Source: Thalassospira sp. (GTDB lineage: Bacteria; Pseudomonadota; Alphaproteobacteria; Rhodospirillales; Thalassospiraceae). Taken from it: 64,000 nt of DNA. The stretch lies in NCBI RefSeq assembly GCF_002709775.1, contig NZ_PAQR01000007.1, positions 149,207 to 213,206 on the forward strand, given 5' to 3'. Below, piece by piece: positions 1,263 through 64,000 of the stretch (position 1 is its first letter; the number at the start of each line of letters is the position of its first letter). The notes under the pieces were generated by a model. The model ran no database searches. It had not been told where the DNA came from and saw only the letters and a program-made list of their open reading frames with translations. The position numbers were made by a program, and so were the translations under genes.

Positions 1263-3302
1263 TTAGTTTACTTCGACCAACTTCTGAGTGATTTCCAAAG
1301 GACGGGTGATGGAGATGTCCGTTCCCGAAACGGATACAGAGAATGTCACGCCATACTCGGACGCATTGGGGTCCAGATTTTTAATCGCCAGGTTCCCGTC
1401 AGAACCTAGCAATTGAACGGAGTTTTGCTCTTCGGTAAATCTCCGGAAGACGCTGACATCTGCCGAAACCGTGCCGTCTTCTGCGAACCGAATATTGATG
1501 TTCTGGCTGAATGCACCGCCGCCGAGCATCAGGCTGCCTTCATCGAACTTTTCGAATGGCAGTCCGTAGTCATCGACATTGAGGATATCCATCAACATGC
1601 CCTGATGAACCACACTGGTCAGAGTTTTCAGAGCCGTGCTGTCTGCCTGACCCATACCGGAAAGCTGGTTGTGGACGCGTTCGGCCATGTCAGTGGTGGT
1701 TTCGTCGTCGCGCGCGATGTTGACCTGAAGTCCTTCGATCTGGACGGTGCCGCGCTGTATGAAGTCCTTGGAAAACTGTTCACCAACGGCGACGTCGCCA
1801 AGGTTCTGGGGATCAAACTGGAAGGCCTTTTCGAGCAAGATGTGCTCTGAGCCTTCCTGTGTCAGGCGGATATGGGTTGCGGCGTTGTCCTTGCCGAAGG
1901 CAAAGCCACAGGCCCGCTGAAGGGCGGCTTTTTCGGCATCGCTGACGGAGGTATCGGCATCCTCGGGGATGGCGATTTCGTTTTCTTTTACGATGTCATT
2001 AAGCGACGTTGCTATCTTCAGGAAAACGTTGCTGCCGATCAATTGGGAGTTGGCGGCGGGCCCCTGATACGGATCGACCATCGTCACACCCGAAGAATTA
2101 ACCTCACTGAGCATCGAATACTGACCTGTCAGGTCGAAAGCTTCGATCCCCAGATTTTCCCATTTCGTCGGTGGGAACTGTTCGATGAAGCTGGTCTGTT
2201 GTTCGCGTGTCATTCCGGCGAAAAGATTATCGATCATGTCTGATGACACGGTTGCCATGTCATCAGCACCGGCATTGGTCGCAAGCGCGTATTCACCAAA
2301 CTTGCGTGACGCATCAATGAACTTGCCAAACGCGTCCGAAATGTCGCCATTCTCGGCGGTAATGCTGTCCATTGCTGTATCGAGCAAAGTCTTGGCAGAA
2401 TCGATTGCGGCGTCGGCGAATGTTTTTGCGTGGTCCTTGATCGGCTGACGTTGCTCGGACGACATGCCGATCTCGCCAGAAAAGGCGCGCAGCATGGCGG
2501 TGGCCGGCATATCCAGGCCATCAAGGTCGTTTTCCATCCGGGCAACCAGTTGTTCAATCATCTGCCCTTTGGCACCGTCCACCATGTCCAGATAGGCTTG
2601 GTCTGCACCGTTTGCATTTTCCGGTACGTCCCGAAGCAATTTGGCTGCTTCCATCATGGACGGCAGGATATCGGCAAGCGGTTTGTTCGCGGCAAGGTCG
2701 CGGGTCACGTTTTGCATCGACCGGGTAGCAGATTCAGCCGTGACCATGGTCGATGCGGTTTGGGCATTGGATGCCAACAGCGCGAGAACATCCTTGGCGC
2801 CCGCCTTTGCCAGGTCTGTGTCCTGTGCGTCAGAGATCCGGTCCTGGCTGGAGACCAGTGCAAGCTTTTGCGAAAGATGCTGCACGCCATCGCGCGATAG
2901 CTCTTCCATGCTGTTGATCATGGCGTTCTGCAGTATGTTCTGAAGCGGCTGTCCTGATTTCAGAAGGCTATCCACCGACTTGGCGATTGCCGACATGTTT
3001 GGCGGTGTCTTGTTGTCGGGGTTTGCCAGCTCCTTGACCAATGCGCCGATATTGTTGCGCAGCTCAGTTGTGTTTTTCTGAACAAGATACTGGGCGCGGA
3101 CCTTGGTGCCGGGAATATGTTTGAGAATGCGATCTGCAAGGCTGGTCGGTGCGCCTGCCTGGCCTGCATTTGCGGCACGGCCCTGCGGCGGAGGAGCGAC
3201 TTCGAGTTTCATGCCCGCCAGGCTGACATTGTGCCGTGCCTCGACATTCTCCATGCCGCCGAGTTGATGCGCGACCGGGTTCTGAATACCGATATTTGGC
3301 AT
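1263..3302 (-). CDS. candidate T3SS effector, 679 residues, unknown fold
   Basis: The protein has no signal peptide or clear membrane segment. The first 60 residues are Ala/Pro/Gln/Gly-rich and disordered-looking, as in many T3SS substrates. The rest is mostly helical to about residue 360, followed by a more mixed C-terminal part ending in strand-rich sequence from about 560. I do not recognise an enzymatic motif. The call as an effector rests on context: the gene has its own promoter matching the hrp box (GGAACC-N16-CCACTTA, 3372 to 3344), it is followed by a CesT-type chaperone, and it sits at the end of the apparatus operon. ATG at 3302 is preceded by AGGAAGGAG about 6 bases upstream, a strong ribosome binding site. 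A translocon accessory or regulator of secretion remains possible. Confidence 0.6.
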   Translation of the reverse strand: MPNIGIQNPVAHQLGGMENVEARHNVSLAGMKLEVAPPPQGRAANAGQAGAPTSLADRILKHIPGTKVRAQYLVQKNTTELRNNIGALVKELANPDNKTPPNMSAIAKSVDSLLKSGQPLQNILQNAMINSMEELSRDGVQHLSQKLALVSSQDRISDAQDTDLAKAGAKDVLALLASNAQTASTMVTAESATRSMQNVTRDLAANKPLADILPSMMEAAKLLRDVPENANGADQAYLDMVDGAKGQMIEQLVARMENDLDGLDMPATAMLRAFSGEIGMSSEQRQPIKDHAKTFADAAIDSAKTLLDTAMDSITAENGDISDAFGKFIDASRKFGEYALATNAGADDMATVSSDMIDNLFAGMTREQQTSFIEQFPPTKWENLGIEAFDLTGQYSMLSEVNSSGVTMVDPYQGPAANSQLIGSNVFLKIATSLNDIVKENEIAIPEDADTSVSDAEKAALQRACGFAFGKDNAATHIRLTQEGSEHILLEKAFQFDPQNLGDVAVGEQFSKDFIQRGTVQIEGLQVNIARDDETTTDMAERVHNQLSGMGQADSTALKTLTSVVHQGMLMDILNVDDYGLPFEKFDEGSLMLGGGAFSQNINIRFAEDGTVSADVSVFRRFTEEQNSVQLLGSDGNLAIKNLDPNASEYGVTFSVSVSGTDISITRPLEITQKLVEVN

Positions 3303-14914: not shown

Positions 14915-15397
14915 CTAGTTGCTGGCCAATGCATCAAGCAGCACATTTGCACGGTCGCGTATTGCGCTTGCTTCTTCGCCTTCGACTTCTTCCAGGACAT
15001 AGCCAAGCATTTCTTTGGCATCGTCAATTTCGCCGATGGCGATCAGACATTCCGCGATATGGAGCTTCGGCTCGACATCAAGGGGGGCAATTGCCAAAGC
15101 AGCGCCATAGGCCTGAATGGCTTCGGGGAACATCTGCATCATCTGGCAGGATGCCGCCAAACCCTTGTGGTATTTCGGCTCGAAGTGATTATAGACGCTG
15201 AGCATCGAGAAGGTCTGTGCCGCATCGTGGTATTTTCCTTGGCGATAGGCATTGAAACCAAGCGCATAGATCGCCTCTAGTTCGTCCTCGCCAAGGCCGC
15301 GAAGGGCGGCAATCGTGCTTTTGTTTTCAAAGAGCTCTGTTGCCATCGTTTCGATAACTTCAGGGTTGATGCTGTCACTGGTTTGCTCGGTGGTCAT
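14915..15397 (-). CDS. class II translocator chaperone SycD/LcrH-like
   Basis: A 160-residue protein with three tetratricopeptide repeats between about residues 35 and 140, including YALGFNAYRQGKYHDAAQTF and GLAASCQMMQMFPEAIQAYG, the SycD/PcrH/SicA signature. These chaperones hold SctE and SctB in the cytoplasm through their concave TPR groove. The open frame extends upstream to 15439, but ATG at 15397 has AAGGAA about 8 bases before it and fits homologue length. It directly precedes the two translocator genes. Confidence 0.92.
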   Translation of the reverse strand: MTTEQTSDSINPEVIETMATELFENKSTIAALRGLGEDELEAIYALGFNAYRQGKYHDAAQTFSMLSVYNHFEPKYHKGLAASCQMMQMFPEAIQAYGAALAIAPLDVEPKLHIAECLIAIGEIDDAKEMLGYVLEEVEGEEASAIRDRANVLLDALASN

Positions 15398-15419
15398 CAG
15401 CTTGTTCCTTTTCTCAGGC

Positions 15420-16034
15420 TCAGCGCATGTTGCCGACAATAGCGTCGAGGGATTTCTGAATTTTCTGCAGGGTATTGGACAGGGTGTCGAAGGCCTGATT
15501 GCGTTTGTTCATCAGACTTTGCATCCGGATCATGTCGAGCTGTCCTGTAGAGTTCAGGCCATCGATCTTGCCTTTGATGTCGTTGATCCAGGTGTCGATG
15601 GTCTTCTGCTGGGCGTCGAATTTTCCGGTACCCGGTTCGTTGATGCGGCCATCAGCAGAAGAGGTTACGTTGACATTCGGAAGGCCACGCAGGTCGTCCA
15701 TTGAGCCGTCGCCCGGGAGCTGCAGGTCAATTTTGACGCCCTGTTCTGCCAACTGGCGGACGATTTCGCGGGCCTGCGACTTGTTCGCACCAAGGTCGGC
15801 CCACTTATCGGGGTTATCACCAGAGGGACGGACCGCGCGAAGCGAACTGAGCAAGTCATTAAGCTGGCGAACCTGCTCGTTGCGCGACTGGATTTCCTTG
15901 ATCTGATCAGCCATCTGGCTTTCAAGGTTGCTGGCGCGTTCGGCCTGAACCAGCATCATCATTTCTTCCATGCCCATGCCGGGCTTGATGCCCTCAACGC
16001 CGTTGACGTTATTACCAGAAACTCCGGTCACCAT
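15420..16034 (-). CDS. needle-tip-like protein, second tandem copy
   Basis: A 204-residue protein nearly identical over its first about 80 and last about 65 residues to the one encoded just upstream (16067-16684), but with a divergent middle of about 50 residues (about 85-137). The N-terminal QMADQIKEIQSRNEQVRQLNDLLSSL and C-terminal RMQSLMNKRNQAFDTLSNTL segments look like the two long coiled-coil helices of needle-tip proteins (LcrV, PcrV, EspA type). Position between an LcrG-like gene and a SycD-like gene is that of lcrV/pcrV. I infer a tip (SctA) role; the sequence alone does not prove it. Two different tip subunits would be unusual. Confidence 0.68.
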   Translation of the reverse strand: MVTGVSGNNVNGVEGIKPGMGMEEMMMLVQAERASNLESQMADQIKEIQSRNEQVRQLNDLLSSLRAVRPSGDNPDKWADLGANKSQAREIVRQLAEQGVKIDLQLPGDGSMDDLRGLPNVNVTSSADGRINEPGTGKFDAQQKTIDTWINDIKGKIDGLNSTGQLDMIRMQSLMNKRNQAFDTLSNTLQKIQKSLDAIVGNMR

Positions 16035-16066: not shown

Positions 16067-16684
16067 TTAGCGCATGTTGCCAACGATGGCATCGAGGGAT
16101 TTCTGAATTTTCTGCAAGGTGTTCGACAGGGTGTCGAAGGCCTGATTGCGTTTGTTCATCAGGCTTTGCATCCGGATCATGTCGAGCTGGCCGGTTGAGT
16201 TCAGGCCGTCGATCTTGCCCTTGATGTCATTGATCCAGGTGTCGATGGTTTTCTGCTGGGCGTCATAGCCATTGCTGCCATACTCATCAGAAATCCCGTC
16301 TCCATGGGTCGTCTTGACCGTGACGTTCGGCAGGCCTTTCAGATCATCCAAGGAACCGTCATCAAGGAGCTGAATGGTTACCGGGACCCCTGCTTCGGCC
16401 AGAGCGCGAATGGTTTCGCGTGATTCCTGACGATTGCTACCAAGGACGGCCCACTTATCGGGGTTATCACCAGAGGGACGAACCGCGCGAAGCGAACTGA
16501 GCAAGTCATTAAGCTGGCGAACCTGTTCGTTGCGCGACTGAATTTCCTTGATCTGGTCTGCCATCTGGCTTTCAAGGTTGCTGGCACGCTCGGCCTGGAC
16601 GAGCATCATCATCTCTTCCATACCCATACCGGGCTGAATACCCTGCACACCAGATGTTGCGCCTGCACCGCTTACACTGCTCAT
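16067..16684 (-). CDS. needle-tip-like protein, first tandem copy
   Basis: A 205-residue paralogue of the next gene. The shared N-terminal part carries GMGMEEMMMLVQAERASNLE and the shared C-terminus ends DAIVGNMR. Its own middle segment includes SLDDLKGLPNVTVKTTHGDGISDEYG, comparable in framework (LPNV) to the other copy but different in the exposed-looking residues. It has no signal peptide, as expected for a T3SS substrate. It lies 62 bases after the LcrG-like gene and its start is preceded by CAGGAGTTGAGGAT. Tip-protein identity is inferred from operon order and coiled-coil layout; a filament protein of EspA type is an alternative. Confidence 0.68.
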   Translation of the reverse strand: MSSVSGAGATSGVQGIQPGMGMEEMMMLVQAERASNLESQMADQIKEIQSRNEQVRQLNDLLSSLRAVRPSGDNPDKWAVLGSNRQESRETIRALAEAGVPVTIQLLDDGSLDDLKGLPNVTVKTTHGDGISDEYGSNGYDAQQKTIDTWINDIKGKIDGLNSTGQLDMIRMQSLMNKRNQAFDTLSNTLQKIQKSLDAIVGNMR

Positions 16685-22529: not shown

Positions 22530-23102
22530 CTAGCCGGGTCGCTGTGGCAGCGCTATCTGGCGAATAACTTCAACCGACTTCTCGAGCAGCACAGATACAT
22601 CACTCAAGTCCGGTGTTGCAGCACTTTTTTTACTGGAAAACAGGTCTGATAGCTGTTCATCTACTTGTTCACGTTTGTGGTCGTCGAGGTTGTTCGGGTC
22701 TATTTTTGCAAGATTACAAGCAGTTACAAACCCATCGCCGTTTCTCGTCGCGCTCATAAAATTTTCGATCACAAAAGAGTTATGCGTGGCCTGTTTTTGA
22801 TCGTTCTGCGCCAGTGCAATTTTCCGATCCAAAAGTGAAGCACTGCTCTCTGACGGCGGGGCAATGTTTTGCTCGGCAAAGGTGGAATGGGCCCGCGATA
22901 TTTGTGCTTTCTCAAACGTACCAAACTTCGCAAGCGCGCCGCTGTCGCCTTCAAGCATTTCCTTGGTCAGGGCACGGACAGCTCTTTCGCCAATTTTGCC
23001 CGGTCCGGTTTGCGCACTGTCATCCTGCGGTCGCGCGACACCATTGGTCTCATGCGTCGAGACATTCTGGGATGGCAGATTGTCGTTTCTAATACCGGTC
23101 AT
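22530..23102 (-). CDS. unknown T3SS-locus protein, candidate substrate (190 residues)
   Basis: Unrecognised protein. The first 40 residues are Asn/Gln/Ser/Pro-rich and disordered-looking (NLPSQNVSTHETNGVARPQ), typical of T3SS export signals; the rest is helical and charged. It lies 57 bases downstream of a CesT-type chaperone gene (23160-23621) on the same strand, the usual layout of a chaperone and its effector. A helical domain with DPNNLDDHKREQVDEQLSDLF and SVLLEKSVEVIRQIAL ends the chain. An effector or secreted regulator is the best guess from context. Confidence 0.6.
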   Translation of the reverse strand: MTGIRNDNLPSQNVSTHETNGVARPQDDSAQTGPGKIGERAVRALTKEMLEGDSGALAKFGTFEKAQISRAHSTFAEQNIAPPSESSASLLDRKIALAQNDQKQATHNSFVIENFMSATRNGDGFVTACNLAKIDPNNLDDHKREQVDEQLSDLFSSKKSAATPDLSDVSVLLEKSVEVIRQIALPQRPG

Positions 23103-26033: not shown

Positions 26034-27479
26034 GTGAGATTTCAGGTGCAATTTGTCGTTCTTTTCGGCCCTCAGGCCGGTGCGCATGTTACCCTTCACT
26101 CAGGCGACTATGTTGTCGGCTGTGGTGAAGAAGACGATGTTGTGGTCATGGGGCGTGGTGTTGCAAATGCGCATTTCAGATTTGCGATTGATGAGGCCGC
26201 TGGGCGACTGAAAGTCCTGAAATGTGAAAAGACTGTCTTTTCAGAAGGTGCACATGCGCTTTCTGAGAATGACGAGATTGCCCTGCCTCAGAAATTCTGG
26301 ATCGGTGATGTTGTTATCGGGATTGGTGGTCTCGAAACCCGTTGGGACGAACCGAAGTTTGAAGAGTCCCCGCATGCGGTTGATCGATCTGTTGTTTCTG
26401 ATGACGCAAACAAGCCGTCTGATAACGGAGCAGAGGCGCTCGAAGGTGGGGCAGGGGATAAAACGTCGCTACTAGGTCAGGGCGGTCTGACGGATGATGC
26501 GACAGGCGCTACAGGGGAAGCCGACGCTGCCACAGACGAGGCAGTCGCTATTTCGGACGATGGCAGGAAACGAAAGTCGTCCCGGTCTGTGATGCTGATC
26601 CCGATTGTGGTGACAACGGTTGCGGTCATCGGTGGTTTGCTGATGGTCTTTATTGCCGGTGATGATGAAAGCATTGCCACGCCTGCTCCTGGCCAGGTGA
26701 TGGTTCCAGGGCAGGAAGAGTTCAGTGAAATTACAACACTTCTTGCCGGTATCTCCGAGGTTAGTGACCTTAAGGCGACATTGATCGACGGCATTCCCCA
26801 TGTTGCCGGTTACGCACCTACGACCCAGACGGTAGAGATGATATCGACCGCTGTATACGGCATTGCGCCCGAGGCCCGGATTGATGTGATTGCAGACAGT
26901 GAACTTGAAAAGCGTGCGGCATCGGTGCTTTCGGGCAGGGGTGTAAAGGTCGACAAGGTCGAAGATGGTGTCGTTTATGTCAGCAGTGTTGTCTCCGATC
27001 CGGGCGCAAAAGAGCAGCTCGTTGCCTTCGTTCAGGAAGAGGTTGTTGGTGCCGCAGGTGTCGATGCAGAAAAAATTTATGAGATCAGGGAACTGATTGA
27101 CGTCTTTGGTGACCAATTAAAACGTCAGGGAATTTCCCAGATTTCGCTTCGAAACTTGCGTGACGAGATCATCGTATCGGGTCGTCTGGAATGGTCGAAG
27201 CTGAATGACTGGGAAGATCTTCTGGCGCAGTGGACTGATGAATATGGGTTGAACTTCCGTGATGCCCGTCCAGTGGTTTTGGACGGCGACAATATGCCTT
27301 TTGAATTGGTTGCCGCCGTGGGCGGGGACAACGGGTTCTTGCTGCTTTCCGGGCAGGAAAAGGTGCATATCGGCGGCGAAGTTGCCCCGGGGTTCACCCT
27401 GAAGTCGGTTACAGATGGTGCGCTGGTGCTTCAGCGTCATGACAGCGAATACATGATTGATATCAGAGAGACAGAATGA
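26034..27479 (+). CDS. sctD: T3SS inner-membrane ring protein SctD (YscD)
   Basis: A 481-residue protein: N-terminal cytoplasmic FHA-like domain (about 5-105, VVLFGPQAGAHVTLHSGDYVVG), acidic linker, one membrane helix at about 186-208 (VMLIPIVVTTVAVIGGLLMVF) and a periplasmic part with ring-building repeats (about 235-470). It forms the outer part of the inner-membrane ring and connects to SctC and SctK. The start is GTG at 26034; another GTG at 26046 is in frame and neither has a strong ribosome binding site. No hrp box was found directly upstream. It overlaps the next gene by four bases. Confidence 0.92.
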   Translation: MRFQVQFVVLFGPQAGAHVTLHSGDYVVGCGEEDDVVVMGRGVANAHFRFAIDEAAGRLKVLKCEKTVFSEGAHALSENDEIALPQKFWIGDVVIGIGGLETRWDEPKFEESPHAVDRSVVSDDANKPSDNGAEALEGGAGDKTSLLGQGGLTDDATGATGEADAATDEAVAISDDGRKRKSSRSVMLIPIVVTTVAVIGGLLMVFIAGDDESIATPAPGQVMVPGQEEFSEITTLLAGISEVSDLKATLIDGIPHVAGYAPTTQTVEMISTAVYGIAPEARIDVIADSELEKRAASVLSGRGVKVDKVEDGVVYVSSVVSDPGAKEQLVAFVQEEVVGAAGVDAEKIYEIRELIDVFGDQLKRQGISQISLRNLRDEIIVSGRLEWSKLNDWEDLLAQWTDEYGLNFRDARPVVLDGDNMPFELVAAVGGDNGFLLLSGQEKVHIGGEVAPGFTLKSVTDGALVLQRHDSEYMIDIRETE

Positions 27480-27715
27480 ACGAGCAAACTGCGACACATA
27501 TTCTGGATATCGAAGAAAAACTGGCCGGCGAAGATCGGGCTGATCACGCAGATCAATATTGCGACCGTCTTGAAGCTGCCGCGATGCAAGTGAAGCGTCA
27601 ACTTGATCAGGGCGTAGCCCCGGACCAGTACCGCGTTTTGTCAGGCTTGCTTGAATCGTACGAGGCCGCGCAAAAAGTCGTTCGGATGGTATCGGGCACA
27701 GCCCAGAAGAGCTAA
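27476..27715 (+). CDS. YscE-like needle co-chaperone
   Basis: A 79-residue helical protein (two helices, HILDIEEKLAGEDRADHADQYCDRLEAAAMQVKRQLDQG and PDQYRVLSGLLESYEAAQKVVRMV). YscE is a 66-residue helical-hairpin protein encoded between yscD and yscF and, with YscG, keeps the needle subunit monomeric. Size, hairpin layout and the D-E-F order fit; the sequence is not otherwise diagnostic. Start overlaps the sctD stop (ATGA). Confidence 0.78.
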   Translation: MNEQTATHILDIEEKLAGEDRADHADQYCDRLEAAAMQVKRQLDQGVAPDQYRVLSGLLESYEAAQKVVRMVSGTAQKS

Positions 27716-27801: not shown

Positions 27802-28026
27802 ATGTCGTTGAACTTCAACTCCGTTGGCCAGTCGCTTGGCAATAACATGAAGGCCAATGAAGCAGATTTCGAAAGCTTCATGCAGAACATGGATTCATCT
27901 GATCCGAGCCAGATGATCGAAATGCAACGCAAGATGCAGGAATGGACCTTGTCTGTTCAGATGCAGACGTCAACGATCAAGGCGCTTGGCGACGCATTGC
28001 GCGGTGTCATCCAGAAAATGAACTGA
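27802..28026 (+). CDS. sctF: T3SS needle protein SctF (YscF)
   Basis: A 74-residue needle subunit. The C-terminal half has the helical needle signature QMIEMQRKMQEWTLSVQMQTSTIKALGDALRGVIQKM, with the conserved WTLSVQMQT-S-IKAL pattern and the family's C-terminal hydrophobics; the N-terminus is NFNSVGQSLGNNMK. Hundreds of copies polymerise into the needle. ATG at 27802 follows AAGGAACTTCTGAA. It lies between a YscE-like gene and the unusual TssL/TssM-like pair. Confidence 0.94.
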   Translation: MSLNFNSVGQSLGNNMKANEADFESFMQNMDSSDPSQMIEMQRKMQEWTLSVQMQTSTIKALGDALRGVIQKMN

Positions 28027-28046: not shown

Positions 28047-28892
28047 ATGAGCGCAGGAAGACAATCTGTTGCCTTGGTAGAAGAATTGCGCCCTTCGCAG
28101 TCTTCTGCCGAGCTTTTGGATGGTGCCGACGACAACAGAATTCTATCCGTCTTGATGGCGGCCATTGCTGATCTAGTTCAAGCTGCAGATCAGAATGCAC
28201 CAATGAGGCCCGACGCACTGGCTGAGCGCGTTGACCTGGTCATTGCGCGCTACTTCGGCAAGCATCTCGACGAGATTGCTTCACCGCCGGAAATGTTCGG
28301 GCAATACGAGCAATTTTCGGCAAAAGACTCTCGCACCTGCCACGAAGAGAAGACCTGTTCGGTCTGGCTTGCGCTTGTTGTGCTTGATGGCGAAGCAGCC
28401 CGGATTGCGATGAGCAACGGTGTGCGCTGGGCTTCCGGGATGCTGGCGGATCGCTACTGTCCAAATCCACCGACCGTGCAACAGGTTTTGGCTTGTCGGC
28501 AACTGCCGCTGACAGATGAACTGGCGAAGCTGTATGGTTTGGCGCAGCAGGTTTATGGCGGTCTTGAACGACACACAAGATCAACGTCTTCGGGGCGTGA
28601 TATTGTCCCGGTGACCACTGATGCCAAACTGTCGGCCTGTTTTCCTTCCTATATCCGTGACTTTAACTGTGTGGTTTCCCTTCCATTGTCAGTGACGGGG
28701 CGGAAGCAATCCGTACGTCTCCTGGAAACACCAGAAACGCGACCTTCGAAAACAGCTGTGTTTCGTCGGTCACTGTTGATTGGTGCAATGATATTGCTCT
28801 GCCTGTTTGCTGGCTTTGTTCTTGGGTGGGTGTATCAGGGGCAAATCACGGCACACGCCGGTGCGATCGATAGCATTCAGGAGCCCGTATGA
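28047..28892 (+). CDS. DotU/TssL-like membrane protein in the T3SS operon
   Basis: A 281-residue protein from ATG at 28047, 20 bases after sctF. The cytoplasmic part is helical: ILSVLMAAIADLVQAADQ... resembles the first helix of DotU/TssL, CSVWLALVVLDGEAARI its YALC-LDE helix, and ELAKLYGLAQQVYGGLERH its LLELLYLCL-GFEGRYR helix. A single membrane helix lies near the C-terminus (about 242-264, LLIGAMILLCLFAGFVLGW), as in TssL. The following gene is TssM-like and overlaps by four bases; tssL-tssM is the conserved order in type VI secretion. The similarity was judged by eye and is weak, so a profile search is needed. It is not a known Sct component. Confidence 0.55.
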   Translation: MSAGRQSVALVEELRPSQSSAELLDGADDNRILSVLMAAIADLVQAADQNAPMRPDALAERVDLVIARYFGKHLDEIASPPEMFGQYEQFSAKDSRTCHEEKTCSVWLALVVLDGEAARIAMSNGVRWASGMLADRYCPNPPTVQQVLACRQLPLTDELAKLYGLAQQVYGGLERHTRSTSSGRDIVPVTTDAKLSACFPSYIRDFNCVVSLPLSVTGRKQSVRLLETPETRPSKTAVFRRSLLIGAMILLCLFAGFVLGWVYQGQITAHAGAIDSIQEPV

Positions 28893-31300
28893 AACAGTGG
28901 TTCTGCCATGTTTGTCCGGGTGTCGATCGCAAAACGCTGTTTCGTGATCTTGCCGATAACGCAGTCCCGCACTGGTTTAAGGCTGATGGTGTCTGGGGAA
29001 GATCGAAACGCAATGTGAACGCCGGGAAGTATCGGGGATTGGTCATTGCAATTCCAACCAGTGGTTTGCGACAGTCTGAGCACGTCGCCCGTATCGGATC
29101 CTATGTTCATCGACTTGCGGCCACGTTCCAATCCTTGGGGCGGCCGATTGTTTTGCTGTTGTGTGGTACTGGTGATCACGATGTTTCATCGGGGCTGACC
29201 AAGGCCGGTGTTTTGCCGTCCGGCAAGGCTGTTATCGGATGGCTTGGCGAGAATGTGGACACCGGAATCAGAGCGTTGGCGCTTTCAACCAACTATCAGG
29301 CAGCAATCTCCCGTTCAGACAGGCTGATTTCCGATCAATCAGATACGCGATATTCTGCAAACCTTCCGGTGCAAAATGCTGTCCTGGGGTGGCATTCCGT
29401 TTTGCAGGCTCTCGATACTTTTATTGAAACATCACGGCCGGCTTGGAAACCGTCGGGTGTTTTCCTGACCGGCGATGTGGTGCAAGGCGACGTGGCCCGG
29501 AGCCGGCAGGTCAGTCTTTATCACGAGCTCGAACGGTTTGCAGGGGCAGAAGATCTTTATGCTTGGGTCAATAGCAAACAATCTGGTCGCAAAGGTTTGT
29601 TGGCCGTGGCGGCGCTTCTGGCGCTGATGGTTGGTGGTGGGGTTGCCTGGCAACACGGGGCGGCTTTGCGTAATGCGTTGTCACCGCATTCGCAAATTGA
29701 TGCGGCGTCGCGTTTGTGGCATTTGGGGGAAACCCTGCAACAGACACAGGGTGCGGATCTGATTGCAGTTGTGCCGGGGACACAGTTTGAAGCCTTGCGG
29801 TCCGAAATCATCGCTCTGAGCAAGACGGTGCTTCAGGATCCAGCGCGCAGGGCGTTCGAGTTGCGCCTCGACGGCATCGAGCAAACGGCATTGACCGCCA
29901 ACACTGAAACGGTCGTGAACCGTTCTGTCCAGTTCCTGTCAGAGCTGACGACTTATTTGAGTGGGCCGGTTCAATCAACCGATCCGGGGGCAGGTACGGC
30001 GGCCGGTAAAGTTACCCAAGAACCGATAATCGATCCATGGTGGACGCTTTTGGCTGAAAACGGGGTGATTGATCGGGCTCGTGCCGATGGCGTGCCGCCC
30101 GTCCTGTCTGACATTGTCGGAAGCAGGTGGGGTGTTTCGCCCGATTGGCAGCACGAAATCACCAATCGTGTTCAGTCCCTTCTGGAGACAGTCGTTGGCT
30201 ATCAGTGGGGTGTCGGGCGCGGCCCCGAGATCGTCGCAGCAGGTAATGCTTGGTTCGCCCTGAATGATCAGATTGCATCTCGGCCTGAAACGGTGAGTGA
30301 AAAGACTATTGGTGATCTTTTGGCAGCCTACGGGACGGTCGCTGACAGTCAAAAGCAGCTTGGTCTGTTATCGGATGATGCCAGCGGGCAAGACCCATTG
30401 TTTGCGGAACTGAATGCTACGCCTCTGCTGGACAAGAGCTGGCTGTTCAGGTTGCGCCTCAAGGCAAGTTTGGAGCTTGAGGCTGCCCTTAATCAGGTTG
30501 AACTGTCTTCGTCTCATCGTGACGAAAGAACCAACGTTGTACGTTTCGATGGGTATAATTCACGGGCTGTAGCGCAACTGCTGTCGCTAAATGAGGACCA
30601 GATGGGGCGTGAAATACTGGGCCGTGTCGGGCAAGAAATTGTGCGACCGAGTGCGGATGGTCTCCCGTCCAGTGAGGATATCTCGCGTGCGCTTGAGTTG
30701 GGCGAATATTATCGTAATGTCCGCAATCTTGCTGGAAGCGCCCAAGGGGCCGTGTCTGAGATTCTTGATCAATCGGCAATCACGACGATGAGTGATCTGC
30801 TGTTTGGGCAGGGGGCCGGGCCGCGTCACTTGATGGCTCCGGACTATGTCGCGTATTTTAGTACTGCATTCAGGATGCATGCCATGGCGGGTTCTTATTC
30901 CTCGGAATTCGGCGATGATTTTCGCTGGGCCTTTACCGTCACAGCAGTGCGGGAACTGGAACGTATCGACGGCGCTGGACGAAATCTGATCTCGACATTG
31001 GAAGGTGGCCTGGATCAGGTAAAGGTTCTTGAAACAAGCGCGGAGCTTCAGGCGCTGGTAGATACAGCGCAGGATATCTTACCGGTTATTGCCGAACTTG
31101 ATGCCGATGGTGTTCTTGGATTGTCACCTGTCGTTCAGCGCTGGAAAAATATCGCGAGCACCGAAAGCCTTCAACCTTCTGGCCGTTCTGTTGACGGGTT
31201 TGGGGGGAGTGCATGCCGCGCCTTTGGCGTGAACTTGCCCTTGGCAACGGCTTTGGCAAACGAAAAAGTAAAGACAATGATGATCGAGAGTGGGTGTTAA
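28889..31300 (+). CDS. truncated IcmF/TssM-like protein in the T3SS operon
   Basis: An 803-residue protein that matches IcmF/TssM by eye from just after the P-loop. HWFKADGVW (about 28-36) corresponds to the WWFTDEAVL region; KYRGLVIAIPTSGLRQ (47-62) to the INGVIVAVSLADLL strand; FQSLGRPIVLLLCGTGD (80-96) to LGVRFPVYVLLTKCD; PSGVFLTGDVVQG (188-200) to the conserved LRGVYFTSGTQEG. One membrane helix (about 236-254) is followed by a 550-residue, mainly helical periplasmic part, as in TssM. The N-terminal membrane helices and Walker A are absent, and the final NKxD equivalent is GTGD, so it probably does not hydrolyse nucleotide. It overlaps the TssL-like gene and precedes a STAS gene. Confidence 0.62.
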   Translation: MKQWFCHVCPGVDRKTLFRDLADNAVPHWFKADGVWGRSKRNVNAGKYRGLVIAIPTSGLRQSEHVARIGSYVHRLAATFQSLGRPIVLLLCGTGDHDVSSGLTKAGVLPSGKAVIGWLGENVDTGIRALALSTNYQAAISRSDRLISDQSDTRYSANLPVQNAVLGWHSVLQALDTFIETSRPAWKPSGVFLTGDVVQGDVARSRQVSLYHELERFAGAEDLYAWVNSKQSGRKGLLAVAALLALMVGGGVAWQHGAALRNALSPHSQIDAASRLWHLGETLQQTQGADLIAVVPGTQFEALRSEIIALSKTVLQDPARRAFELRLDGIEQTALTANTETVVNRSVQFLSELTTYLSGPVQSTDPGAGTAAGKVTQEPIIDPWWTLLAENGVIDRARADGVPPVLSDIVGSRWGVSPDWQHEITNRVQSLLETVVGYQWGVGRGPEIVAAGNAWFALNDQIASRPETVSEKTIGDLLAAYGTVADSQKQLGLLSDDASGQDPLFAELNATPLLDKSWLFRLRLKASLELEAALNQVELSSSHRDERTNVVRFDGYNSRAVAQLLSLNEDQMGREILGRVGQEIVRPSADGLPSSEDISRALELGEYYRNVRNLAGSAQGAVSEILDQSAITTMSDLLFGQGAGPRHLMAPDYVAYFSTAFRMHAMAGSYSSEFGDDFRWAFTVTAVRELERIDGAGRNLISTLEGGLDQVKVLETSAELQALVDTAQDILPVIAELDADGVLGLSPVVQRWKNIASTESLQPSGRSVDGFGGSACRAFGVNLPLATALANEKVKTMMIESGC

Positions 31301-31358: not shown

Positions 31359-31697
31359 ATGGCTTTGGAAGTAAAGATCGACGGTTCGGTGCATATCATA
31401 TTGATGGTTGGCCGTCTTGACAGCTCTTCGGCTGGCGAGGCTGAGACGACCGTCAAAGCCGTGATTGATCAAGGTGCAACCCGTCTTTTGATCGATATGT
31501 CCGGGCTTGATTACATATCGAGTGCTGGTTTGCGGGTTGTCCTGGTTGCGGCAAAAAACATGCAAAAATCGGGTGGCGCGATGGCAATTTGCGGCATGTC
31601 ACCGTCGGTTCGCGAAGTATTTGAAATGACAGGATTCCTTAAAATCCTAAAGGTCTATGATCGCGAAAGCGAAGCAAAGGAAGCGTTGGAAGGATAG
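31359..31697 (+). CDS. STAS-domain anti-sigma factor antagonist
   Basis: A 112-residue single STAS domain (SpoIIAA/RsbV type). The conserved loop LLIDMSGLDYISSAGLRVVL contains the Ser that is phosphorylated in partner-switching systems. ATG at 31359 with AAGGAG eight bases upstream is chosen over the upstream GTG-type extension to 31290, which would overlap the TssM-like gene. Bordetella uses the comparable BtrV, with BtrU and BtrW, to control T3SS. No anti-sigma kinase or PP2C phosphatase is in this window, so the partners are unknown. It is the last gene of the sctD operon and converges with the ECF sigma gene. Confidence 0.9.
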   Translation: MALEVKIDGSVHIILMVGRLDSSSAGEAETTVKAVIDQGATRLLIDMSGLDYISSAGLRVVLVAAKNMQKSGGAMAICGMSPSVREVFEMTGFLKILKVYDRESEAKEALEG

Positions 31698-32540: not shown

Positions 32541-33179
32541 TCAGGCCGGATTGTGGTGGAAAACAGCTCTTTTGGGCGGAAGAAATTCGGTGATTTTCCG
32601 AGAGCTGTTGAAGACAGGTTTATCACTCGGGCTTTCGAGACTGTCGTTGAATATCCCATCATATGACAATAAGAGATGATCAATTCTATCGCCTGGGGCG
32701 TAAGCAACAACAATGTGCGGTGACGATTCTGTCTGTCCACTTTCTGCATAATCGAGAAGTTGGCTGAGCTTTTCTTCAAGTCGGAGAAATGTCTGGTTCA
32801 CAGCCAGTCGTTCGGCTTCGATGTCATTGTTGATGTTCCCGAACTCAAGGCGCAGCCACATATGAACTTGCCCGACAGATAATTGATAAATCAGTCGGTT
32901 GGACGCAAACCCCCCCGATTGCAAAGCGAAACATACACCATCGCGGTGTGACGATGATCCGACCTTGTTCAGGAATGTCGGAAGATCTGATGCTGGATCG
33001 TAGTCAAGGCTGCAAAAGCCGAACTTTCCAACGCTTCTGAGCTTGTCGACAAACGCGTGTGGTACGGCCGGGCACCGAAGGCCTATGGCGCGGCATTCAA
33101 TAAAAGCCTCCTCCAGCGCGGTGAGCATTGAGTCGTTTCCAAGGGCCTCTGGCGGGGTGGTGTTCTGTGAGTTTATCAT
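32541..33179 (-). CDS. unknown protein paired with kinase-like effector (212 residues)
   Basis: Unrecognised protein whose start overlaps the end of the kinase-like effector gene by four bases. It is mixed alpha/beta: helix ALEEAFIECRAIGLRC, strands GVCFALQSGGFASNRLIYQLSVGQVHMWLRLEFG, a helix NQTFLRLEEKLSQLLDYAE. Size is above the usual 120-160 residues of class I chaperones, and the sequence lacks their hallmark, but the position is that of a cognate chaperone. It could equally be a second effector or a regulator of the kinase. The start is chosen at 33179 because of the overlap. Confidence 0.6.
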   Translation of the reverse strand: MINSQNTTPPEALGNDSMLTALEEAFIECRAIGLRCPAVPHAFVDKLRSVGKFGFCSLDYDPASDLPTFLNKVGSSSHRDGVCFALQSGGFASNRLIYQLSVGQVHMWLRLEFGNINNDIEAERLAVNQTFLRLEEKLSQLLDYAESGQTESSPHIVVAYAPGDRIDHLLLSYDGIFNDSLESPSDKPVFNSSRKITEFLPPKRAVFHHNPA

Positions 33180-34873
33180 GCTGAACGCGCCTGCTCATCA
33201 AGTGCATTTGCTTCGTCTCGCGCACTTGCAATGTCCCGCGCCCAATAGGAGGCGTCTTCACCGCGTGCCTCAAGATACGCGCCTGCTGTTTCGCCATTCG
33301 GGCTACGCCATTGCGCCCAATCCTCGACAATAAAATCAGGGTCAAGGTTACCGATACGCTCAAGAACCGTTTCGAAACGAGCGCGCGTGGCGTCTATTTG
33401 CTGCGCGTCAAGCCGGCCGCCCAGTCCAGGCGCAATATCCCGGTTGAAATCGATACCGCTGAGAGTGTCGAACGTTTGTTTGTCAAGGAGTACGGGCTCA
33501 CCGCGGCTGTGCTGCCGTCTCAGGCTGCGGGCTCCAAGCAGGGCATCGCTGTTATGTCCGAACGCCGCGTCGTTATCAATGCCAACAAGTTTTACCCCGT
33601 CGTCTTTCAGGCTCACCATGTAGTTGCCAGCGTGGCGATCAAGTTGCCCGGCAATGCAGTCCAGAAGCTGCAAATCACAGAGCTGACGTTGAAGATCGGC
33701 CTGCTGATTGTTCGTCATGGGGGCGTCAAACGCGTCAATGACATTGTTCGAAAGCTTTTTCACGACAAATGGCTTGTCGTTTTCATTAAGCGCAACGTTG
33801 CCGTTTTCGTCGAATGTAAAGCCCTGTGATTCCAGAATCATCTTCCAGTCGTCGGCTTCCATCAATGCCTTTTGGCCGAGTAACCGGTTCCAGTCTTCGT
33901 CATCGACTTCCTGCTTTTCGGTTTTCATGGCATGCACGCCAGTGGCTTCTTCCATCATCAGGCCCACTTGGCCGTTATGTGTGCCAACCTCAACTTTGCA
34001 CAGCACGTTCAGCCCCAACGCCTGATCAATTGCGGAGGCTGCGAGATTACGTGCGGCAAAGCGCGGTAGCTCGAAACGGGCATGAACCGAACTGGCGAGC
34101 CCTTCCTCAACTTCGGGGACAGTCGACAACGCTTTGAATATGCGTGTTTCACCATCATTGTAGGTCAGTTTGGCAACGGTGTTCATCGCACCCTTGCCAA
34201 ATTCTTCGTTTACGCCGGACGGATCAATGTTGTTGTCGTTCAGTGCCGTGAAGTTGCAGTCTGCAAGGGAAAGACCAAATCGCTTTGCTTGAAGCATGTC
34301 ATTGATCTCAACACCTTGCTGGGTGTTATCACCGACGCGATTAAGGTCATTCTCGATGGATTGCAGTAGCCCGAATTCACTGGCGATCTGGTTGACGATT
34401 TCACGCATCGCAGAAACATTTTCCTGCTTTGACGTGTTCTTTTCGTGCTTGGCGATATAGGCGTCTGCACTTTCACGAATGTCGGCAAGCTGGTTGCGCA
34501 GGCTCATAAACTGCTCTTGACGATTGTCGCTGGGCGCATTTCTGAGTGCTACGTGATATTGCTGCAGGGCACTGGACATCGCCTTGAATTCACTGCTTCG
34601 GCGGTAGAGTGTCAGCCCGCCAATTTTGATGTCTTCTTTAGGCTGATAGTTTCCTAGCTTTTCCGACAGCGTTTCAAACGTCATCAAACGTTGTGAGATA
34701 TCGTTCTGTGCGACGCCGCGCGGGCGTTGTGCAATAACTGGACCCCCGGCATTTTGTGGCCGGTCATTCTGTACAGATGGATCTTCCTGATGAACGTTGG
34801 GGGCGACATTGTCCTGCGGGATCGTCCGGGCGGCATTAATCGCGGAGTTGTTGGATATCGGTGTCGGATTCAT
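33176..34873 (-). CDS. candidate T3SS effector with PI-kinase/HipA-like motifs
   Basis: A 565-residue protein starting at ATG 34873; the open frame extends 20 codons further but the added segment crosses an unlikely leader. The first about 60 residues are Asn/Pro/Gln-rich and disordered-looking, then a coiled-coil part to about 190. A kinase-like domain follows: GKGAMNTVAKLTYNDGETRIFKAL with a candidate ATP-binding Lys247, LLDCIAGQLDRHAGNYMV with catalytic-loop D412-R-H-x-x-N417, and VGIDNDAAFG with metal-binding D433/D435. This DRHxxN...DND arrangement is that of PI3/4-kinase-like and HipA-like enzymes. A hrp-box-like promoter lies 74 bases upstream. An effector kinase acting on host lipid or protein is inferred. 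Confidence 0.72.
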   Translation of the reverse strand: MNPTPISNNSAINAARTIPQDNVAPNVHQEDPSVQNDRPQNAGGPVIAQRPRGVAQNDISQRLMTFETLSEKLGNYQPKEDIKIGGLTLYRRSSEFKAMSSALQQYHVALRNAPSDNRQEQFMSLRNQLADIRESADAYIAKHEKNTSKQENVSAMREIVNQIASEFGLLQSIENDLNRVGDNTQQGVEINDMLQAKRFGLSLADCNFTALNDNNIDPSGVNEEFGKGAMNTVAKLTYNDGETRIFKALSTVPEVEEGLASSVHARFELPRFAARNLAASAIDQALGLNVLCKVEVGTHNGQVGLMMEEATGVHAMKTEKQEVDDEDWNRLLGQKALMEADDWKMILESQGFTFDENGNVALNENDKPFVVKKLSNNVIDAFDAPMTNNQQADLQRQLCDLQLLDCIAGQLDRHAGNYMVSLKDDGVKLVGIDNDAAFGHNSDALLGARSLRRQHSRGEPVLLDKQTFDTLSGIDFNRDIAPGLGGRLDAQQIDATRARFETVLERIGNLDPDFIVEDWAQWRSPNGETAGAYLEARGEDASYWARDIASARDEANALDEQARSA

Positions 34874-34946
34874 CGGATAGCCACTCTCTTTCTGATTAAC
34901 CTTCAACAGCACACCTGGACTAGCTCCGGGCAACTTGCGCTTATTG

Positions 34947-61300: not shown

Positions 61301-62314
61301 CTGGATCTGGTCGGCAAGGTCGACCTATCGCTTAAGGGCGTTGAGGAGTTGCTCAATGAACTCCTTGATATCTGCAAGCTCGATGCAGGTGCGATGCAGC
61401 CGACCGTGCGGGACTTTGCCATTAATGATGTGTTGGGCGCGCTTGAAACCGAATTCGGCCCGATTGCCGAAAATGCGGGGCTCAGCTTCAAGGTCCATAA
61501 ACGCGATCTTTGGGTGCGCAGTGACAGTCGACTGCTTAGGCGTATCCTGCAGAACTTCATTTCCAACGCCATGCGCTATACCCGCACTGGTGGGGCGGTG
61601 GTCGGCTGCCGTGTCCGTGGGGATAAGCTGAAACTGGAAGTCTGGGATAGCGGGCCGGGCATCCCCGAAGACAAACTGAAAATCATCTTCCGCGAATTCC
61701 ATCGCCTTGAAGGCCCGGAAACCGCGGATGTGAAGGGACTTGGCCTTGGCCTTGCCATTGTGGACCGTCTTGGCAAGTCGCTGGGTCACCCGGTTTCGGT
61801 GCGCTCCCGCCCCGGTCGTGGCACGGTCTTCTCGGTCGAAGTGCCGCTTGGTGTTGCCGACACAACCGCCACTCCAAAACCCAAACGTCGCATGGCGGGC
61901 GAGTTGGGCGGCTTACGCGTGCTGTGCCTTGATAACGAACCCGATATCCTTGATGGCATGCGCGCCATGCTGGAAAACTGGGATTGCGTCGTTGTCACCG
62001 CCCAATCCGGCAAGCTGGCCGAAGATGCCCTGACCAAGGCCGAGGACGGTAAACAACCCTTTGCACCGGATATTATCCTTGCCGATTACCATCTTGATTC
62101 CGGCCAAACCGGCCTAGATGTCTTAATGCGGCTGCGTGATGTTCACGGTGTTAACGTTCCTGGCGTCATCATCACCGCCGACCGCTCAACCGAAACCGCC
62201 GACTTGATCGCCGAGCAAGGATTCTCCCTGCTTAACAAACCCCTCCGTCCGGCCAAGCTGCGCGCCCTGATGACACGGGCGCTTAACCGGTTGGAGAGTG
62301 ATGCGGTGGCATGA
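58346..62314 (+). CDS. hybrid histidine kinase with sodium/solute-symporter-like sensor
   Basis: A 1322-residue sensor. Residues 1 to about 500 form a 13-helix SSS-like membrane domain (IYIGPIVVMIVGFGIMTKIARVC and others), as in CbrA and NahK relatives. Two PAS domains (about 650-760 and 775-900) and a coiled coil follow. The dimerisation His is in FFAAASHDLLQPLNAARLF (about 955), with ATP-binding boxes VWDSGPGIPEDKLKIIF and GLGLGLAIVDRLGKSLGHPV. The C-terminal receiver (about 1190-1310) keeps the acidic DNE near the start and phosphoacceptor Asp in IILADYHLDSGQTGLD. The ligand is unknown; transporter and kinase may be coupled. Confidence 0.95.
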   Translation: MIQGGLIFIVAMTYIGLLFAIAHYGDKYADKWRSSKLKPSIYALSMAVYCTSWTFFGSVGSAATDGWAFLPIYIGPIVVMIVGFGIMTKIARVCHKQNITSIADFLGSRYGKSQSLAALVALIAVVGVLAYISLQLKAVSMSFDVLIGDLGEQVVRHSEGHFSKDTAFYVTILMAVFAILFGVRYIHASEHHDGLILAVAFESLVKLAALLMVGFFVVYGMFDGFADINKRALADPTVRQLFLPDTWLTSNFFIATMLAGFAIFCLPRQFHVTFVENDDSRNLTSARWLFPAYLIAINIFVVPIAIAGLFMFGHNPAVNPDTFVLTLPLLGGQNWLAVFAFIGGLSASTGMGIVSCVAVSTMVCNDLVMPLLLRSERLQKRMSGDVSQVLLKIRRAAIIVILFLAYGFYRFLAENYALADIGILSFAAMAQFGPAVLAAIYLKNINRTGVRLGLLSGFGLWAYTLLMPTFVQGGLLPSSILTDGPFGIGILNPQALLGVGIEDHLTHGVVWSLGVNFVLMFVGSAVGVQGVTQRRQAQVFVDVWRKDTRARNDTWPGRVTLGDLEDLAARFLGKHWAQRAFRNYLQARDGETKRSDIADVDAANFTEHLLSGAVGAASSRVVMALLLPDKAVSRRDAMELLDEASEAIKFNRDLLLNTLENISQGVGVFDQNLRLATWNHRFIDLLGISTSDIQVTLPLSELVHICRDNGNRAVDIDILLGRNAAPQMRRLPHTYERKRADGMVLEVRTNPMPDGGFVATIADITARVRTEEALRDSERNIRIYTDNIPVMIAYADKNQRLRFTNRPYERMFGLRRVEAHGMSVREAVGEERYVHLAPMIELVLQGYRQSFEIEFPAITRNRNDERATLGVREGRYAEGTYIPHFDETGEVLGYFCIYHDITERKTAEQALKEANEGLEARVTERTHALEVLNSELSDAKEQAETANDTKTRFFAAASHDLLQPLNAARLFTVALGGKQGLAEDVLDLVGKVDLSLKGVEELLNELLDICKLDAGAMQPTVRDFAINDVLGALETEFGPIAENAGLSFKVHKRDLWVRSDSRLLRRILQNFISNAMRYTRTGGAVVGCRVRGDKLKLEVWDSGPGIPEDKLKIIFREFHRLEGPETADVKGLGLGLAIVDRLGKSLGHPVSVRSRPGRGTVFSVEVPLGVADTTATPKPKRRMAGELGGLRVLCLDNEPDILDGMRAMLENWDCVVVTAQSGKLAEDALTKAEDGKQPFAPDIILADYHLDSGQTGLDVLMRLRDVHGVNVPGVIITADRSTETADLIAEQGFSLLNKPLRPAKLRALMTRALNRLESDAVA

Positions 62315-62419
62315 CCACCCTAACGAGTGGGCGCTATGCTCTGGACATGTATTGGTTGATCCGACTAGTCTCAAGAAAAGCGTGTATGTCAATTTTCAAT
62401 AGCTAGTCCGGGGTGAGAG

Positions 62420-64000
62420 ATGTCTTTTGATCTGAAATTAGGGTTCGTCTCCGATGCAATCGGAAGGTTTTCAGATGAAACGGGTCTTAATGATGATGAT
62501 GCCTTCATGTATTGGTTTTATTGTCTGATCTACGATGTTGAGTATGACGATGTCCCCTTGGATGAAATAGTAGACGGTTCTGGTGAACGGCAAACGGACA
62601 TCTTTCATATTGGTGTCGATGAATCTACGCAAAAAGTAGTTGTCGATATTATACAAGTAAAAAATACTTCGGGGTTTTCTGCCAATACAGTGTCTTTAAT
62701 GAAGGCAGCATTGGACTTTATATTTAAAGTAAAGAGAGCAGAATACCAAAAAATTTCCAATAAATTGTTTGTTGAAAAAATCAGCAATGTAAGGGAAGTC
62801 ATTGCTGAGTATGGTAATACAAGCGTTTCTGTCCGTTGTATGTTCGTAACGTTAGGTGATGAAGAGGGGATTTCAGAAGAAGCGTTGCAAAATGCCGATA
62901 ACATCCGCCGCGAGTTCGCAGAATCTCAAGTTTTCGGTGATTTTAGCTTTGATTTTGTGGGGGCGCATGAACTCAATAGGCTGATGAATTTGCGTCGAAA
63001 CCAGAAGAGAACCATCAACTACAATTTGCCCATTGTATATGATGCAAACCGTGCGTCTGTAGTCGAGTTTGATGCTGCCGGGGTCAAAAGTCTTCTATGT
63101 ACGGTTAGTGGTATCGAGTTGGCTAAACTTGCTCAATCCGAGCCTAGGGATGCGGTGTTCGATGCCAACGTAAGGGGAAACCTTGGGCTTGGTGGTCAAG
63201 TGAACAAAAATATTCATGAGTCTTCAACAGTGGAGGACAAGTCAAAGCTTTTCTGGTTCATGAATAATGGGATAACAATGGTATGCGACCATTTTGATAT
63301 TGTTAGAGATCCAGATAGCCCGAGCGTTAAAATAAAAAACCTTCAGATAATCAACGGGTGTCAAACTACGTCTTCCATTCGATCGGCTTACGAAGATGGC
63401 GTTTTGCGTGGAGAGGTTAAACTTCAGGTCAAAATATACTCTTCAAACGACGAGTCGTTTGTTAATAATGTTGTGATTGCAACAAATAATCAAAATTCCA
63501 TTAATACACGAGATCTTCATGCGAACGACGAAATACAGCAGCTTATACAGCAAAAAATTCACGAAGAATTTGGTTTGTTTTATGAGCGAAAGCGTGGCGA
63601 ATCTAAAAGCGCTAGGGTTTCTCCAAGTGACGTAATTAAGTTGGAGAAGGCAGGTCAAGCGTACCTTGCCGTATTCTTGAGGCAGCCAACCGTAAGCCGT
63701 GCTCAGAAATACAAAGTGTATTCTAACGAGCTATACAGTGACATCTTTGGGAAAGCTAAGCCTTCTCAATTAGTATTGGCGCATGAGTTGTACAAGTTTT
63801 GCGATGTTCGTGGTCGTAGGGCATATCGTGAATTGGCGGACTCGGATCCGACAAGAAGTATTCTCAACTACGGCGTATTTCACATAACTAGGGTTCTCTG
63901 GTGGTTTATTGAGCAAGATGACGAAATGTCCGCATTACCAATTTTGGACTTGGTCAATTTAATTAGATCAGATGACGAGAAAATTGAAAAAGCATACGAA
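62420..64000 (+). CDS. AIPR (abortive phage infection) protein, 3' end off window
   Basis: An open frame of 527 codons from ATG at 62420 (GGGGTGAGAG just upstream), with no stop before the window end. The AIPR family core is seen at about residues 278-290 (FWFMNNGITMVCD), 307-317 (NLQIINGCQTT) and in VNNVVIATNNQNSINTRDLHAND near 355. AIPR proteins are associated with phage-abortive infection in Lactococcus and often flank restriction genes. Codon use and base composition are clearly more AT-rich than the adjacent kinase gene, a sign of acquisition. An N-terminal about 270-residue region precedes the recognised core. Confidence 0.86.
   Translation, partial: MSFDLKLGFVSDAIGRFSDETGLNDDDAFMYWFYCLIYDVEYDDVPLDEIVDGSGERQTDIFHIGVDESTQKVVVDIIQVKNTSGFSANTVSLMKAALDFIFKVKRAEYQKISNKLFVEKISNVREVIAEYGNTSVSVRCMFVTLGDEEGISEEALQNADNIRREFAESQVFGDFSFDFVGAHELNRLMNLRRNQKRTINYNLPIVYDANRASVVEFDAAGVKSLLCTVSGIELAKLAQSEPRDAVFDANVRGNLGLGGQVNKNIHESSTVEDKSKLFWFMNNGITMVCDHFDIVRDPDSPSVKIKNLQIINGCQTTSSIRSAYEDGVLRGEVKLQVKIYSSNDESFVNNVVIATNNQNSINTRDLHANDEIQQLIQQKIHEEFGLFYERKRGESKSARVSPSDVIKLEKAGQAYLAVFLRQPTVSRAQKYKVYSNELYSDIFGKAKPSQLVLAHELYKFCDVRGRRAYRELADSDPTRSILNYGVFHITRVLWWFIEQDDEMSALPILDLVNLIRSDDEKIEKAYE

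Follow-up and report, generated by a model that had tools for sequence, protein, structure and literature searches.

To our knowledge, the membrane proteins DotU (TssL) and IcmF (TssM) are known only from type IVB and type VI secretion systems. In the type IVB Dot/Icm system of Legionella they are inner-membrane determinants located at the cell pole; they stabilise the machine and promote its assembly at that site (PMC7029142). This study concerns a pair of genes resembling them, P0001 and P0002, within a type III secretion system (T3SS) operon of Thalassospira sp. The stretch analysed, called the window below, comprises 64,000 nucleotides (GCF_002709775.1, NZ_PAQR01000007.1, positions 149,207 to 213,206; contig C6 of genome G000) and carries a large T3SS locus. 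Among the papers listed by literature searches, judged at the level of the listings, none placed IcmF or DotU in a T3SS operon, and a term search of the main text of PMC3459982 found neither name. Homology of the pair to DotU and IcmF is likely, judging from profile comparisons and predicted models, and on balance we favour the view that P0001 and P0002 derive remotely from DotU and IcmF and constitute an inner-membrane module that has become a fixed part of one Bordetella-like (Bsc/Ysc-type) injectisome lineage, with a probable role in assembly or placement.

Two overlapping genes directly after the needle gene were the starting point of the original prediction, and the reading frames bear it out. 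The genes sctD (26034..27479; inner-membrane ring protein; PF16697, the YscD cytoplasmic domain, E 5.7e-8; TIGR02500 E 2.9e-17, below its cut-off), sctE (27476..27715; YscE-type needle co-chaperone; PF08988 E 1.4e-7), sctF (27802..28026; needle subunit; PF09392 E 3.7e-18), P0001 (28047..28892; 281 amino acids (aa)) and P0002 (28889..31300; 803 aa) lie codirectionally on the forward strand, with 4-base overlaps or gaps of at most 86 bases between them. P0001 begins 20 bases past sctF, it shares 4 bases with P0002, and both frames are open. We take the cytoplasmic domain of the sctD product to be FHA-like.

Loci of this kind, defined by a match to the window SctC at E<=1e-45, were found in four of 297 genomes of the order (the window genome, G267, G964 and G991), and the order sctD-sctE-sctF-P0001-P0002 is kept in all four, across two families. 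Both genes are intact and in the same order in G267, a genome of the same genus as the window genome, whose contig is that of Thalassospira lucentensis HF2 (L003). In G964 and G991, the gene after sctE and sctF encodes 274 or 281 aa and ends in a hydrophobic C-terminus; it overlaps the gene that comes next, which encodes 873 or 858 aa. These proteins share about 16-22% identity with the Thalassospira pair in forced alignment, and comparing the profiles of the two groups gave no significant match (P 0.03 and 0.12); the G964 and G991 counterparts were therefore found by place and architecture, not by similarity. The anticipated recurrence of the pair in other loci of this type thus holds throughout the order sample, while neither gene is present in three loci that are more distant and in which sctF was recognised, on the Nitratidesulfovibrio plasmid pDEVAL01, in G765 and on contig 28 of G782. 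Where sctF was recognised by phmmer, the tally is the pair in four loci, an IcmF-like gene alone in one (G130, discussed below) and neither in three; G054, G176 and other T3SS-type loci, in which sctF was not recognised, stand outside this tally.

The relationship to DotU emerges through the relatives of P0001 and through its fold. Reference TssM and TssL sequences were drawn from 14 genomes, and the DotU profile was built from 17 checked TssL, leaving out L062, L064 and L067, which are other open reading frames (ORFs) upstream of tssM. Ortholog pairs of the same loci supplied the background: 149 profiles were made from them, of which 145 remained once the four representing the pair itself had been dropped. 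Against the DotU profile, the four-locus P0001 profile (P 8e-4) scored above all 145 background profiles, as did the G964/G991 profile (P 2.6e-4, probability 42) and the G964 and G991 proteins each alone. The two Thalassospira P0001 sequences gave no significant score (hhalign E 0.076), 13 of the 145 background profiles being equal or better. For the G964 counterpart, DotU was the only Pfam match at E<=10 (E 0.024; 14.7 bits vs a cut-off of 27). An earlier background test, with a 20-sequence TssL profile, had one higher-scoring background ORF, an OprF with an OmpA domain. The predicted model of P0001 is all-helical and its best two structural matches in the PDB are DotU, with EAEC TssL at rank 9; these ranks, like the fold comparison of P0002 below, come from the VIA second look, in which a fold ranked low by Foldseek cannot appear.

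P0001 is also predicted to be C-tail-anchored, by a transmembrane (TM) helix at residues 244-262 (28776..28832, forward strand; hydropathy) with four K+R before it and none after. One TM within residues 242-265 is predicted in three of the four family members, G964 falling under the hydropathy threshold. A C-tail anchor occurs in 6 of 343 background ORFs, and such anchors are rare in E. coli, according to PMC3426401. The dimensions agree with those of two diverged TssL (276 and 284 aa, TM 233-251 and 247-265), and, like DotU/TssL (PF09850), P0001 lies upstream of an IcmF-like gene and has an all-helical model. Unlike them, it has no Pfam match of its own and sits in a T3SS operon. Because it falls below the family cut-off, we term it DotU-like.

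P0002, in turn, is predicted to share the domain order of IcmF/TssM (PF14331, PF21070, PF06744): a cytoplasmic P-loop-like domain, a TM and a long helical periplasmic part. On the forward strand, these correspond to a putative degenerate P-loop GTPase-like domain (residues 1-146, 28889..29326), whose predicted model is GTPase-like; the single predicted TM (residues 236-254, 29594..29650; hydropathy), with more K/R on its N-terminal side; and a 547-residue part (29657..31297) predicted to be periplasmic and all-helical from the topology and a low-confidence model. It differs from IcmF/TssM in several respects. The N-terminal TM hairpin (TM1-2) and the Walker A pattern are missing in all four P0002-family proteins, a hydrophobic stretch of the G991 protein (residues 13-31) coinciding with the expected first strand. 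Of the 20 ORFs initially collected as TssM, 10 also lack the strict Walker A pattern, one of these (L053) being in the wrong frame. For IcmF_C, P0002 has no Pfam match, and the C-terminal part of the low-confidence model has no strands; no sequence link to TssM was found for the periplasmic part. As P0002 fails several defining IcmF features, it is described as IcmF-like and not filed as IcmF. The original prediction was right that the N-terminal helices and Walker A are absent, but it took the protein to be cut off after the P-loop. The low-confidence model starts with a strand (4-8), a loop and a helix (14-23), and the domain therefore appears degenerate, retaining a P-loop-like start.

The three P0002 segments that had been quoted as resembling the IcmF/TssM core are present in the sequence, but a likeness judged by eye from the window proteins alone is not significant. 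P0002 by itself ranked 45 of 181 proteins against the TssM profile (14 of the 181 were unscored). Against the nucleoside triphosphatase (NTPase) region of TssM, the Thalassospira P0002 pair was likewise not significant and was equalled or passed by 4 of the 145 background profiles, and the G964/G991 profile by three, all SctN matching only 13 residues around Walker A. The four-locus P0002 profile scored above all 145 (P 0.0019), over an aligned stretch that runs from GLVIAIP to LLLCGTG and coincides with the one named in the original prediction. When four diverged TssM were left out singly, they were recovered at E 7.9e-29 to 3.6e-95, and four diverged TssL at hhalign E 4.6e-12 to 4.3e-54 with the 17-TssL profile. 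By this measure P0001 and P0002 lie well outside the sampled diversity of their putative families. Searches of both proteins in PADLOC, PHROGs and PDB sequences returned nothing useful.

A more distant injectisome adds a further line of evidence. A search of 215 genomes of the class returned three further T3SS loci at E<=1e-60. In G130, whose SctC is 40% identical, sctE and sctF are followed by a single gene of 991 aa with a TM at 41-59 (L180:6336-9311). Its only Pfam matches at E<=10 are IcmF_helical (PF21070, E 0.026) and IcmF_C (PF06744, E 0.077), both under cut-off and in the right order; against the TssM profile it aligns over 185 columns (E 2.7e-7, probability 93.3), and none of 179 background proteins scores as high. 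This is the strongest single result of the analysis, and by these matches a related injectisome operon does carry a gene of IcmF type behind sctF. The G130 protein keeps the periplasmic, C-terminal end and is without the NTPase domain, while P0002 is the reverse, having an NTPase-like domain and no IcmF_C. Their common place suggests that the G130 gene and P0002 may descend from one insertion.

Several results weigh against descent from DotU and IcmF. For the window's own proteins, the outcome that the original prediction had named as refuting it did occur: neither P0001 nor P0002 has a Pfam or NCBIfam match at E<=10, and the cut-offs of PF09850 for the former, and of PF14331, PF21070 and PF06744 for the latter, are not reached. 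The G130 locus has no DotU-like gene at the corresponding place, and its protein cannot be linked to P0002 by sequence. Neither G991 counterpart has a DotU or IcmF Pfam match, as would be expected were this an unrelated, lineage-specific inner-membrane pair that resembles DotU/IcmF in architecture alone, with a tail-anchored helical protein preceding a single-pass protein with a Rossmann-like domain. We regard that account as unlikely: the only Pfam matches among the relatives are to DotU (G964) and to IcmF_helical and IcmF_C (G130), the G130 gene occupies the same place and matches TssM, the G964 and G991 counterparts each exceed the entire background for DotU, and DotU structures are the best PDB matches of the P0001 model.

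The rate of change of the two genes could suggest decay instead. Between the window genome and G267, identity is 95% for SctN, 90% for SctV, 85% for SctF and 58% for SctD, vs 45% for P0002 (range 45-47%) and 43% for P0001. The pair is thus among the fastest-changing parts of the locus, and among matched genes only the BspR-like protein (22530-23102) is lower, at 35%. Such divergence, together with the absence from P0002 of TM1-2, Walker A and a recognisable IcmF_C, might be expected of genes decaying after the loss of a type VI or IVB system, yet the frames are intact in all four loci and the place in the needle operon has been kept across two families. Furthermore, P0002 differences between the two Thalassospira fall by codon position as 0.40/0.32/0.65 (dS saturated at 3.3, by a single method); with most change at third positions, the pattern is the one expected under selection. 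We consider decay very improbable.

Another possibility is that the pair is no machine part but a membrane sensor or relay feeding a partner-switching circuit (STAS, HATPase, SpoIIE phosphatase and an ECF sigma factor) that controls the T3SS. An anti-sigma-factor antagonist of the STAS type is indeed the next gene in both Thalassospira loci, and genes for SpoIIE and HATPase lie at the opposite end of the locus. In G964 and G991, however, the STAS gene is elsewhere while the pair stays with sctF, which makes a signalling role with STAS less likely, and neither P0001 nor P0002 has a signalling-domain match in Pfam or NCBIfam. A sensor or relay function therefore seems distinctly doubtful. The STAS gene (31359..31697, forward strand; PF01740 E 8.2e-21) encodes a presumably BtrV-like protein. 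Although its ORF was listed with a start at 31290, the true start is probably near 31359, since the G267 relative has 111 aa, and an overlap with P0002 is therefore doubtful.

The pair is rarely encountered. P0002 was detected in 2 of the 385 class genomes searched and in 2 of 100 relatives, and strong matches to it occur in 2 of 398 genomes of the phylum, always the window genome and G267; 22 further matches in the phylum (E 0.03-0.9) are at chance level. Counting repeats, the searches covered 1989 genomes. Relatives of P0002 are missing from 27 of 28 congeners, G267 being the sole congener with P0002 besides the window genome and likewise the sole congener with an SctC match in the order sample. 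A family search of 55 genomes with the G964/G991 profile gave no further member, and a scan of genome contigs for the pair gave only L003, using peptide patterns from the N-terminus that distant members could escape. Searches of plasmids (tblastn) and viral contigs yielded nothing useful. The window genome (93% complete) has no conventional IcmF or DotU genes, with no match to PF06744 or PF14331 and one to PF09850 (E 0.08, under cut-off). Conventional IcmF_N genes are also absent above cut-off from G267 and G991, and one occurs elsewhere in G964.

The host machine is a Ysc/Bsc-type injectisome with its core Sct genes present and its set nearly complete. SctC, J, L, N, Q, R, S, T, U, V and W exceed NCBIfam cut-offs, the SctE-type protein and SctF exceed Pfam cut-offs and SctD does so barely. 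The original prediction held the full set to be present, with no Sct component replaced; SctP falls under its cut-off, and SctK, SctI and SctO are assigned by position or weak matches only. As the set is otherwise nearly complete, the idea of an added module fits.

The locus resembles Bordetella-like injectisomes in having an almost complete set of Sct proteins, a BspR-like protein and an ECF sigma factor, together with an SseC-like translocator and partner switching by STAS, HATPase and SpoIIE; apart from the BspR match, the likeness to the Bordetella locus itself is presumed. It differs in the extra pair after sctF, which is missing from the related Nitratidesulfovibrio plasmid and G765 loci. 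The Nitratidesulfovibrio plasmid locus (NC_017311.1 125965-163539; L158) has a similar T3SS layout, with STAS, ATP-binding, SpoIIE and transglycosylase genes and no pair after the needle gene. Upstream of the window, where the T3SS locus has its other end, lie genes for HATPase (L159:5283-5714; PF13581 E 3.6e-21) and SpoIIE phosphatase (L159:5788-7878; E 3.4e-47); with the ECF sigma factor and the STAS gene near 31.3-32.3 kb they make up a set for partner switching. Adjoining the locus is a patatin-like phospholipase gene (L159:3268-5097; E 1.8e-19) preceded by a small gene, possibly a secreted protein with its chaperone. Within the window, 15420-16034 and 16067-16684 are similar neighbours, alike at the start, that both best-match one and the same G267 gene (74% and 69%, blastp) and are probably a duplicated filament or tip protein. 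The BspR-family match (22530-23102) has E 4.7e-8, under cut-off. Genes at 1263-3302, 32541-33179 and 33176-34933, in or beside the T3SS locus, have no blastp counterpart in the G267 stretches compared, the last having a PI3/PI4-kinase match (E 1.7e-4, under cut-off); the chaperone gene 14915-15439 also lacks one and may merely straddle the border of a compared stretch. The GC content of 62001-64000 is 0.441, vs 0.50-0.59 in the remaining 2-kb blocks.

The genes, their kept place after sctF, their predicted topology and a remote likeness in sequence and fold are what was obtained directly. In the module that we favour, P0001 would be a cytoplasmic protein held by its C-terminal anchor, and P0002 would present a GTPase-like cytoplasmic domain without Walker A, one membrane helix and a helical periplasmic part of ~550 residues without a recognisable TssJ-binding domain. 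The two would bind each other as an inner-membrane complex that contacts the SctD/SctC basal body, most simply through SctD, a proposal that draws on the role of Legionella DotU and IcmF and on the rarity of C-tail anchors. Such a complex may contribute to the assembly of the injectisome, its stability or its positioning within the envelope, presumably with no use of ATP or GTP by P0002. The proposed role, stabilising a machine and guiding its assembly, is akin to that of DotU/IcmF in the Legionella Dot/Icm system (PMC7029142); the machine itself is different, the NTPase-like domain of P0002 is degenerate and the protein is truncated.

More tentatively, and with rather less confidence than we place in the module itself, DotU/IcmF might be a portable envelope-assembly landmark that does not belong to type IVB and VI systems alone. 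The pair would have been adopted by one injectisome lineage, in which it lost its nucleotide site and its outer-membrane reach and would now serve to position or brace the basal body of the T3SS, perhaps via the FHA-like domain of SctD. If this is true, the occurrence of a reduced pair in a third, unrelated machine would point to a general job, for example marking or bracing the site of envelope assembly, that needs neither ATP nor an outer-membrane lipoprotein. With such a reduced pair at hand in a marine bacterium, this job could be tested independently of any contractile sheath or type IV channel, and bacteria may reuse such an envelope part between unrelated secretion machines.

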